Shown: positions 27,197-28,290 of the stretch, piece by piece
How positions within the stretch are numbered: the first letter of the stretch is position 1
How the letters are laid out: each line of letters starts with the position of its first letter
Assembly: GCF_900102175.1 (NCBI RefSeq)
Contig: NZ_FNKN01000001.1
Span: forward strand, 1,178,001 to 1,242,000
Source of the DNA: Microbacterium sp. cf332
Lineage (GTDB): Bacteria > Actinomycetota > Actinomycetes > Actinomycetales > Microbacteriaceae
Direction of reading: 5' to 3'
Length of the DNA stretch: 64,000 nt
Made by a program: the position numbers and the translations under genes
The notes under the pieces: generated by a model
Told to the model about the DNA's origin: nothing
The model's input: the letters and a program-made list of their open reading frames with translations, nothing else
The model's database searches: none

Positions 27197-27268
27197 GATC
27201 GAGCACCGTACTGACGATTGAGCAATCTGTCACATTTCGTCATCGGACGACGCGGATCACCGACCTGT

Positions 27269-27298
27269 TTGACACATCGGGACACGGATCGTCATAAT
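27269..27298 (+). promoter_or_regulatory. consensus-like promoter of the leaderless micro-ORF
   Basis: A perfect TTGACA -35 (27269-27274) is separated by 18 nt from a CATAAT -10 (27293-27298). The -10 ends 7 nt before ATG 27306, so transcription should start at or beside the A of the AUG. This is the best -35/-10 match noticed in the window. Confidence 0.75.
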
Positions 27299-27305
27299 CG
27301 ACCCC

Positions 27306-27410
27306 ATGACTGACTTCGCACGCACTCTGTCCGCCCGGGAGGCGAACGGACCTGCTGACATCATGATGATGTCGGCGCGTGCTGTCATGTGTTGCCGAAT
27401 GTGCCGCTGA
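27306..27410 (+). CDS. leaderless micro-ORF with Met/Cys-rich end (putative leader peptide)
   Basis: A 34-codon ORF that starts at the predicted transcription start. The peptide opens MTDFARTLSAREANG and ends with a run holding triple Met and then MCCRMCR before the stop; 8 of the last 15 residues carry sulfur (five Met, three Cys). Such a biased end is characteristic of regulatory leader peptides, where ribosome speed on scarce-amino-acid codons controls the downstream RNA. A 13-bp hairpin begins 17 nt after the stop and the winged-helix regulator gene follows. Cys-codon leaderless uORFs controlling downstream genes are known in mycobacteria. A metal-binding micropeptide is the alternative. 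That it is translated is inference. Confidence 0.6.
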   Translation: MTDFARTLSAREANGPADIMMMSARAVMCCRMCR

Positions 27411-27426
27411 CAGGTGAACCCCGCCT

Positions 27427-27460
27427 GATCTGCCGCCGCTTCTGAACGCGGCCGCGGATC
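27427..27460 (+). promoter_or_regulatory. leader hairpin between micro-ORF and winged-helix gene
   Basis: GATCTGCCGCCGC (27427-27439) pairs with GCGGCCGCGGATC (27448-27460) around an 8-nt loop: 12 of 13 pairs, with one wobble and one C-C mismatch. It starts 17 nt after the micro-ORF stop. No U-tract follows, so it may be an attenuator using Rho, a translational switch or a structural insulator. Confidence 0.55.
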
Positions 27461-27597
27461 TCCGAGTTCCGATCGCCGGCCCACAACGCCGACATCCGGG
27501 TGCTCGCTCACCGGCCCCCGCTGGGCCTCACGCAACACACACCCGAACCCGCCTCCGGCCGAGCGCCCCGGGTTCACGTTCCGAGGACGAACCTCCC

Positions 27598-28290
27598 ATG
27601 TCGAACACCGCTCTTCTCACCCCCGTCGCCCCCGCCCGCCACCTCCGCGCCGTCGAGAACCCTCCGGCCGCCCCCGCGCCCGCGACCTCCACCGCCCCCC
27701 GCGGCTTCGCCCTGTACGTCGGCATCGACGAGGCGAAGGCCGCGGCCGACGGCGTCTCGCTCTCGACTCTGGTCGAGGCACTGCGCCGTACGCTCGGCGA
27801 GCTCGCCCCGCACGCCGAGACGTACGCGACCGTCGCCCTCGCGCCCGTCGGCGCCGGAGGCCGTGACGTCGACGTCGTCCGACTCGCGCTGCACGAGCCC
27901 AGCGCCGTCGCGCGGACCAAGCAGGACGCCCCGGCCGAGGACCACGTGCCCGGAGGCGTGACCGTCGACATCTCGCGCAAGCGCGTCTTCATCGATGGCG
28001 AGTCGGCCGCCTTCACCTTCAAGGAGTTCGAGCTGCTGCAGTACCTCGTACTCCGGGAGGGGCGCACGATCGAGCGCTCCGAGCTCGTCGACTCGCTCTG
28101 GAGCAGCGGTTCCGACGACGAGGCTCCCGGCGAGCGCACCATCGACGTCCACGTCCGCAGGCTGCGCGCGAAGCTCGGCCGGTACGAGGACATCGTCCGC
28201 ACCGTGCGGGGCGTGGGCTACCGTTTCGACCGGCACGCCGACGTCGTCATCCGCTACGGTCACGGCACGCCGTCGCCCGACCGCTTCTGA
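27598..28290 (+). CDS. orphan winged-helix (OmpR/PhoB-type) transcriptional regulator
   Basis: A 230-residue protein. The C-terminal part (about residues 120-215) is an OmpR/PhoB DNA-binding domain: VTVDISRKRVFIDGESAAFTF, FKEFELLQYLVLREGRTIER, then the recognition region ERTIDVHVRRLRAKLG and the wing VRTVRGVGYRF. There is no receiver domain with phospho-acceptor Asp. Instead the N-terminus has a Pro/Ala-rich stretch and a small unrecognised alpha/beta region (ALYVGIDEAKAAADG). It is therefore an orphan regulator without obvious kinase. The gene lies ~190 nt downstream of the Met/Cys-rich micro-ORF on the same transcript, which may control it. GAGGACGAAC precedes ATG 27598. Confidence 0.82.
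   Translation: MSNTALLTPVAPARHLRAVENPPAAPAPATSTAPRGFALYVGIDEAKAAADGVSLSTLVEALRRTLGELAPHAETYATVALAPVGAGGRDVDVVRLALHEPSAVARTKQDAPAEDHVPGGVTVDISRKRVFIDGESAAFTFKEFELLQYLVLREGRTIERSELVDSLWSSGSDDEAPGERTIDVHVRRLRAKLGRYEDIVRTVRGVGYRFDRHADVVIRYGHGTPSPDRF

Follow-up and report, generated by a model that had tools for sequence, protein, structure and literature searches.

The window analysed here, a stretch of 64,000 nucleotides from the genome of Microbacterium sp. cf332, carries on its + strand a gene (27598..28290) for an orphan OmpR/PhoB-type winged helix-turn-helix (wHTH) regulator of 230 residues without a receiver domain, as indicated by Pfam, structure prediction and orthologs. The sole Pfam match of the protein is Trans_reg_C and no receiver domain match was obtained (E 0.001 in both cases), AlphaFold places a confident wHTH at residues about 120-220 next to a weak N-terminal part (pTM 0.47), and the family libraries searched give no specific function. 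Upstream of this gene, a sigma-70-type promoter (27269..27298, + strand) combines TTGACA at 27269-27274, a spacer of 18 nt and CATAAT at 27293-27298, matching the consensus at 11 of 12 positions; two promoter-like sites were found in 4 kb, against 0.1 expected from shuffles. Only 7 nt past the -10 element, the ATG at 27306 opens a short upstream open reading frame (uORF, 27306..27410, + strand) encoding the 34-residue peptide MTDFARTLSAREANGPADIMMMSARAVMCCRMCR, and the uORF is predicted to be leaderless from the promoter spacing and has a Met/Cys-rich 3' end. Met or Cys occupies 8 of its last 15 codons, and with a background of 2.2% Met+Cys codons in the 33 long high-GC3 ORFs of the window, the probability of at least 8 of 15 in a single such peptide tail is 3e-10, uncorrected for the number of small ORFs. 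The candidate sensor codons, Met28-Cys29-Cys30-Arg31(CGA)-Met32-Cys33 (27387..27404, + strand), include two that are rare in the same 33 ORFs, where 7.6% of the Arg codons are CGA and 10.7% of the Cys codons are TGT. The sequence-only reading of this DNA had described the promoter, the 34-codon ORF with its Met/Cys tail, a hairpin behind it and a regulator lacking the receiver domain, and sequence, folding and Pfam place all of them just where it had put them. Searches with Rfam covariance models gave no match at E<=1 between 25500 and 29500, and in 14 relatives yielded four matches, all far below the gathering score and to unrelated families.

The position of the promoter leads us to infer that transcription starts at or beside the uORF AUG. 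In this regard, 96 of the 97 genus leaders have an ATAAT motif that ends or lies within reach of a leaderless start, 5-8 nt ahead of the uORF, so that leaderless translation in Microbacterium is probable from the sequence; among the leaders from other genera of the family the same motif occurs in 3/69, and a looser TANNNT in 8/69. Upstream of the promoter, at 27228..27243 on the + strand, we find a possible autoregulatory site, the TGTCAYATTNCGTCAY box. Its local version, TGTCACATTTCGTCAT at 27228-27243, has a single occurrence in its own genome, and with at most one mismatch the box is present once per genome in 5/5 genus genomes, each time at the uORF promoter, with no match to the reversed box used as a control in five genus genomes. 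Such a distribution suggests autoregulation by the regulator, and since the search in five genomes returned the regulator's own promoter only, it delineates no regulon. GTCAYA repeats similar to the box occur ahead of the regulators of another family (f7, see below). In many promoters of a further family, f6 (L194-L223), two GTTAC repeats about 20 nt apart lie upstream of the uORF, an arrangement that we take as reminiscent of paired OmpR-type binding sites.

The regulator is widely distributed. Matches were found in 198/198 same-genus genomes at E<=0.001, a cut-off lenient enough to let in further proteins of the OmpR type, with best matches below 1e-90 in 187 and weaker in 11. At E<=1e-25 a search of the order recovered it in 36 of 149 genomes, of which 26 belong to other families; a class-wide search at E<=1e-23 found it in 18 of 246, including three from other orders. 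Searched with family-specific queries, three other families (f6, f7 and f12, perhaps Micrococcaceae, Brevibacteriaceae and Dermabacteraceae) gave 90/90 and 57/60 genomes at 1e-40 and 47/47 at 1e-30, respectively, and the regulator is present in most sampled genomes of four families. For several f7 regulators (L242-L248) the match is split in two inside a single long open frame, suggestive of an insert between the N-terminal part and the wHTH.

Within Microbacterium, the uORF precedes the orthologous receiver-less wHTH regulator in all 110 loci sampled (30 loci returned by the searches plus 80 regions fetched), and Cys-Arg(CGA)-Met-Cys is kept in every one of them. Conservation of the Met/Cys codons in relatives was among the predictions of the sequence-only reading, and the 110 genus loci bear it out. 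A strict pattern captured the uORF in 103 of the 110; among the seven beyond it, L152 reads QCCRMCH with MND at its start, and the remaining six have their first Cys replaced by S, R, P, R or Y, or deleted (L139, LCRMC). Cys-Cys-Arg-Met was built into that pattern, also for the leaders from other genera, and the free results are therefore the third base of CGA and the remaining codons; less biased evidence of conservation comes from profile searches, from loci outside the strict pattern and from a scan for divergent uORFs. Of 80 loci taken from named genomes, which are mostly Microbacterium and overlap the 110, 79 carry the uORF, and the sole miss (L397) lies at a contig end with only 137 nt before the match. 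The regulator start was located for 97 of the 103 genus leaders, which form the set used below, and six were dropped. Related sequences are not independent in any of these counts, and the shuffle statistics given below ignore kinship.

The 103 genus uORFs encode 31-34 residues, and their first Cys codon is TGT in 92. A median dN/dS of 0.43 (1464 pairs of 33-residue uORFs from genus and family) comes together with frozen synonymous sites, as Ser9 is TCC, Ala10 GCC and Ala13 GCG in 103/103. A hairpin is predicted inside the uORF at codons 7-15 (UCUGU.CGCC/GGCG.ACGGA; 27326..27350, + strand), both by RNAalifold on the 97 genus leaders and in the minimum-energy fold of the window. The frozen codons 9, 10 and 13 fall within this hairpin, and the RNA as well as the peptide appears to be constrained. 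The Arg before the end of the uORF (27396-27398 in the window) is CGA in 110/110 genus loci and in 69/69 leaders from other genera, and CGA-ATG is also seen in f6 and in some f7 uORFs.

Beyond the genus, a profile of the uORF peptide matched 204 of 299 family genomes in 67 of 85 genera (E<=0.01), and in a sample of the order 34 of 297 genomes at E<=0.05; 12 of the latter belong to other families, where the best match reached no more than 0.006. The 69 non-genus leaders used here (70 tried) were chosen as profile matches. The regulator is nevertheless encoded in 19 of 20 listed family genomes that lack a profile match, 75 more such genomes lying outside the list, and a scan that asked for Met/Cys motifs, with no shuffled control, found divergent Met/Cys uORFs, such as VTTQAFSPAPTIMVARVDMCACRMCCCC, in 11 of the 15 loci read from such genomes. 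In the three other families the regulator is usually preceded by a largely different uORF, whose 3' part is again Met/Cys-rich. Scans that required Met/Cys found uORFs of this composition ahead of the regulator in 28 of 30 f6 loci, which start with VN and end in a CCRM-type motif (variants CCYRM and CCRRM) plus one or two residues, and in 25 of 30 distinct f7 loci, with ends such as MCMPCVRGR, MLCVRD or GCCCCL. The scan of f12, for which a Cys was required, gave SMMMCMCMMHRQPSL and similar ends in 7 of 34 rows, and a Met-rich tract before the same conserved tail occurs in 31 of 34 rows, or 28 of 31 distinct genomes; a few rows were counted twice (L107/L229 and L108/L234 in f7; L111/L276, L112/L269 and L113/L260 in f12). 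At L328, the one locus read among the class-wide regulator matches, there was only a chance-like Cys ORF.

That the peptide changes between families and its Met/Cys content stays is what a sensor of amino acids predicts, and what a binder of soft metals predicts as well. Under the latter explanation, drawn by analogy, the Met/Cys end would bind Cu(I) or another soft metal during its synthesis and alter the progress of the ribosome. Met and Cys, together with the His found in f12 and at some f1 and f6 ends, are ligands of such metals, the copper-responsive CruR of Bordetella offers a precedent in the available part of its description (PMC9426467), and the whole peptide is conserved within the family, which a pure codon sensor would not need. 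On the other hand, the spacing of the ligands is by eye not fixed between families, the 34-residue peptide has neither a CXXC nor a RAPP motif, and the complementarity between sensor codons and leader RNA described below is something that a peptide sensor could do without, which makes us regard a metal sensor as improbable. The strong conservation of the peptide in the family would equally fit an arrest peptide, with its CGA Arg just before the end, that responded to a small molecule by holding the ribosome at the stop or close to it, in the manner of TnaC with tryptophan. A rare codon at a fixed Arg throughout the genus and other genera agrees with this proposal, but the peptide is largely unconserved between families and its first Cys is replaced or deleted in 6 of 110 genus loci. 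The presence of CGA in all 179 genus and family leaders, together with an unclean N-terminal control (see below), led us to raise this explanation by one hundredth and to lower our main reading by as much; it stays unlikely, on a par with the metal sensor.

In the window, the region between the uORF and the regulator is predicted to fold into further elements. The hairpin directly 3' of the uORF (27427..27460, + strand) comprises 12 pairs and one mismatch, with all 12 pairs present in the minimum-energy fold, and shows moderate covariation in an alignment of 29 sequences, the window plus 28 of 35 others, seven having been dropped by hand; those 35 came from 63 segments, taken from the 97 leaders, which had been filtered by length and cleared of duplicates and of five named sequences. 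Scored against the structure proposed here, 69.5% of cells are paired versus 62.2% in shuffled data, with 38 double changes versus 21.5; the pairs with a double change number 10 versus 8.3 (56 of 500 shuffles as high), and further pair types are fewer than in shuffled data, 15 versus 19.6 (499 of 500 shuffles as high). The longest outer stem per sequence averages 5.67, compared with 4.73 expected from mononucleotide shuffles. RNAalifold on the same alignment proposed other pairs with no compensatory changes and did not recover the hairpin. A TTCTGAA heptamer lies in the hairpin loop (27430-27455) and is found within 110 nt of the stop in 51/97 genus leaders. Closer to the regulator, a GAACCCG/CGGGTTC hairpin (27545..27575, + strand) precedes a Shine-Dalgarno-like GAGGA (27583..27587, + strand); GAACCCG..CGGGTT occurs in 38/97 genus leaders, GAACC..GGGTT in 64/97, and AAGGAC or GAGGAC in 82/97. 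This second hairpin is part of the consensus obtained with MAFFT and RNAalifold for the whole leader, which consists of the hairpin within the uORF and weak pairing near the ribosome-binding site, the remainder being unalignable.

The sequence-only reading had supposed that slow translation of the Met/Cys end would change the post-uORF hairpin or the access of Rho. The hairpin itself held up, with moderate covariation, whereas the Met/Cys codons are predicted to pair elsewhere. A related explanation keeps the Met/Cys sensor and lets this hairpin and the state of translation decide on Rho-dependent or other termination of transcription. Its covariation, the length of the leader and the proposal of Rho for actinobacterial cys leaders, in the accessible part of that work (PMC1262725), speak for such a scheme. 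The + strand between 25500 and 29500 has no terminator-like site, and so nothing of the classical intrinsic kind, and in many relatives the complementarity points instead to the ribosome-binding site, from which we judge transcription attenuation to be a rather poor candidate, if anything slightly poorer than the two peptide-based explanations. A likelier switch than hairpin or Rho, as judged from the leaders compared, would be the pairing of the sensor codons with the ribosome-binding region of the regulator or with a segment upstream of it.

In this line, TGTGTTGC (27388-27395), within the Met-Cys-Cys codons, is complementary to GCAACACA (27532..27539, + strand), 59-66 nt upstream of the regulator start codon, and the centroid fold of the window predicts this helix with a probability of 0.58-0.77 per pair; the minimum-energy fold pairs the same Cys codons with 27482-27495 instead. 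Tests of 8-mers, ribosome-binding sites and f12 Met codons were made against dinucleotide-preserving shuffles, and those of the uORF-end stems in f6, f7 and f12 against mononucleotide ones. A full complement of TGTGYTGY between uORF and regulator was found in 53/97 genus leaders versus 10.4 expected, the strongest peak along the uORF, followed by the Met tract with 27 versus 6.0 in the same leaders. In the 50 leaders with a score of at least 15, the partner is GCARCRCA or close to it and lies 46-72 nt before the start. Among the 69 leaders scoring at least 12, a TGC at the first Cys faces G in 3/3, a TGC at the second Cys faces G in 32/32, and A faces only T; as evidence of covariation this agreement is weak, because the partner was taken as the best-scoring window and the absence of clashes thus arises partly by construction.

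Other contacts reach the start of the regulator. The Met tract is complementary to the ribosome-binding site in 41/97 genus leaders (12.8 expected) and in 37/69 leaders from other genera (11.4 expected), through a CATCATC beside the start codon or the Shine-Dalgarno sequence. Of the 59 genus leaders whose uORF contains ATGATGATG, 33 have CATCAT at the start codon, compared with 5 of the 38 without it (uncorrected for relatedness), and 17 of 30 f12 rows, where 0.5 are expected, have a start-codon CATCATG that is complementary to the Met codons. In the other genera TGTCGAA meets TTCGACA near the start in 10/69 leaders versus 0.5 expected, and the Cys-Arg-Met-Cys end matches the ribosome-binding site in 18/69 versus 8.9; the same end in the genus is not above chance (5/97, 7.1 expected). 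The ribosome-binding site of the window itself has neither the CATCATC nor the ATTCGACA partner. A longer block of N-terminal codons, intended as a control, also matched the ribosome-binding site in 49/97 genus leaders, with 27.5 expected, and in 15/69 elsewhere, with 11.2 expected. In f6 and f7 no uORF position reaches 20% of leaders against the ribosome-binding site. The f7 uORF ends form stems with the RNA immediately 3' of the stop; z exceeds 2 in 21 of 24 rows, and compensatory exchanges such as A-U/G-C and U-A/C-G are seen. A comparable stem in f12 hardly varies, and here z exceeds 2 in 24 of 31 rows; f6 uORF ends did not exceed shuffles against downstream RNA (median z 0.55; z>2 in 4/27).

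Static folding of the 97 genus leaders gave a divided answer as to what a stalled ribosome would do. A footprint on the Cys codons changed the mean accessibility of the Shine-Dalgarno sequence by 0.004 (up in 21/97, down in 16/97), and the start codon became less accessible in 44/97 and more accessible in 9/97. With the footprint on the Met tract, mean access to the start codon rose from 0.33 to 0.50. Folding thus backs the simplest model of unmasking at the Met tract, but does not do so at the Cys codons.

Our main reading is that the uORF acts as a leader-peptide attenuator that senses the supply of Met and Cys and mainly controls translation of the orphan regulator, an interpretation of the compared sequences to which we give a probability only slightly above one half (about 0.56). 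The transcript would begin at or next to the uORF AUG, and a ribosome translating the uORF would meet the Met and Cys codons shortly before the stop. Where Met-tRNA and Cys-tRNA abound, it would move past these codons and leave them free to pair with downstream leader RNA; their partner would be the start-codon region of the regulator in many relatives, but in the window, as in roughly half of the genus, a segment about 60 nt before the start. Such pairing would hold translation of the regulator down, and a shortage of Met or Cys would stall the ribosome on the codons, block the pairing and allow the regulator to be made. From the same comparisons we infer leaderless translation, stalling, the direction of control and the physiological signal. 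The idea of a sulfur-amino-acid attenuator, already put forward from the letters alone, keeps its sensor: the Met/Cys codons are conserved, Met/Cys uORFs recur in other families and leader complementarity exceeds that of shuffles. Its proposed output is not supported in the form given: the hairpin is not the predicted pairing site of the Met/Cys codons, and the + strand between 25500 and 29500 has no terminator-like site.

A wider reading, which we offer as a speculation that may well prove wrong, sees here a gauge of Met and Cys that is widespread in Actinomycetales, in which one regulator keeps a codon sensor and each lineage remakes the peptide and the contact between codons and RNA. These contacts would be Met tract with start codon, Cys-Arg-Met with the spacer between Shine-Dalgarno and start, Met-Cys-Cys with an upstream segment, and uORF end with stop-proximal RNA. 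If true, the charging of Met and Cys tRNAs would govern a transcription factor with a possible role in setting sulfur physiology. Attenuators of this class usually sense one amino acid and govern their own biosynthetic operon; with a sensor of both Met and Cys placed over a transcription factor, such local control would extend to a switch for a whole regulon, and pairing partners that differ by lineage would offer a natural series for the co-evolution of codon sensors and ribosome-binding site pairing. With regard to metabolism, we found no link of the regulator to sulfur. A PAPS reductase (PF01507) was detected in one of four genomes searched, that of a congener (G045) with two, and not in the strain's own genome, G059 or G276, when 14/14 control genomes matched. 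Strains without this enzyme may depend on reduced sulfur, and its presence in only one of four genomes means that outside sulfur supply may matter. A simple scan around the two G045 CysH genes (L329, L330) found no Cys-rich short ORF.

Cys-codon leaders were predicted in actinobacteria in 2005, ahead of cys or cbs genes of Mycobacterium, Propionibacterium and Bifidobacterium, and for methionine operons the accessible part of that paper describes no conserved upstream RNA structures (PMC1262725). As far as that part goes, those leaders and the present one have in common runs of Cys codons near the stop and no obvious terminator. CruR, the copper-responsive uORF of Bordetella, encodes according to the available part of its description a DUF2946 protein with CXXC and RAPP motifs (PMC9426467). 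The likeness lies in that a nascent, Cys-containing uORF product may alter the progress of the ribosome; the genus uORFs, however, are of 31-34 residues, and the copy in the window has no CXXC, RAPP or Pfam match (E 0.001).

The closest relatives appear to be mycobacterial. In the Cys uORF attenuators of mycobacteria, the sensor codons pair with the ribosome-binding site of the next gene, and Cys limitation raises expression. Their leaderless polycysteine uORFs reportedly attenuate, with control proposed to act through ribosome occupancy, in work by Canestrari (2020, Mol Microbiol 114:93-108). That paper is cited by title and reference in a later article, the accessible part of which treats translation attenuation in general terms (PMC13236596), and leaderless polycysteine uORFs in mycobacteria are also mentioned, in the part available, by Shell in 2015 (PMC4633059). 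Our search of the open-access literature, with most subscription journals outside its scope, found no earlier description of this uORF among the titles and abstract openings listed. Comparable to the mycobacterial cases are the short ORF, here putatively leaderless by its promoter spacing, the Cys codons near the stop, the proposed control by ribosome occupancy and, in several relatives, the complementarity between sensor codons and ribosome-binding site. In contrast, Met stands out here as much as Cys does, the uORF precedes an orphan OmpR/PhoB-type wHTH regulator and not a cys operon or other gene of cysteine metabolism, and the partner in the window lies at its upstream segment rather than at the ribosome-binding site. 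We consider the Met/Cys uORF to be of the same kind as the mycobacterial Cys-codon uORFs, from which it differs in its share of Met, its target and its taxon.
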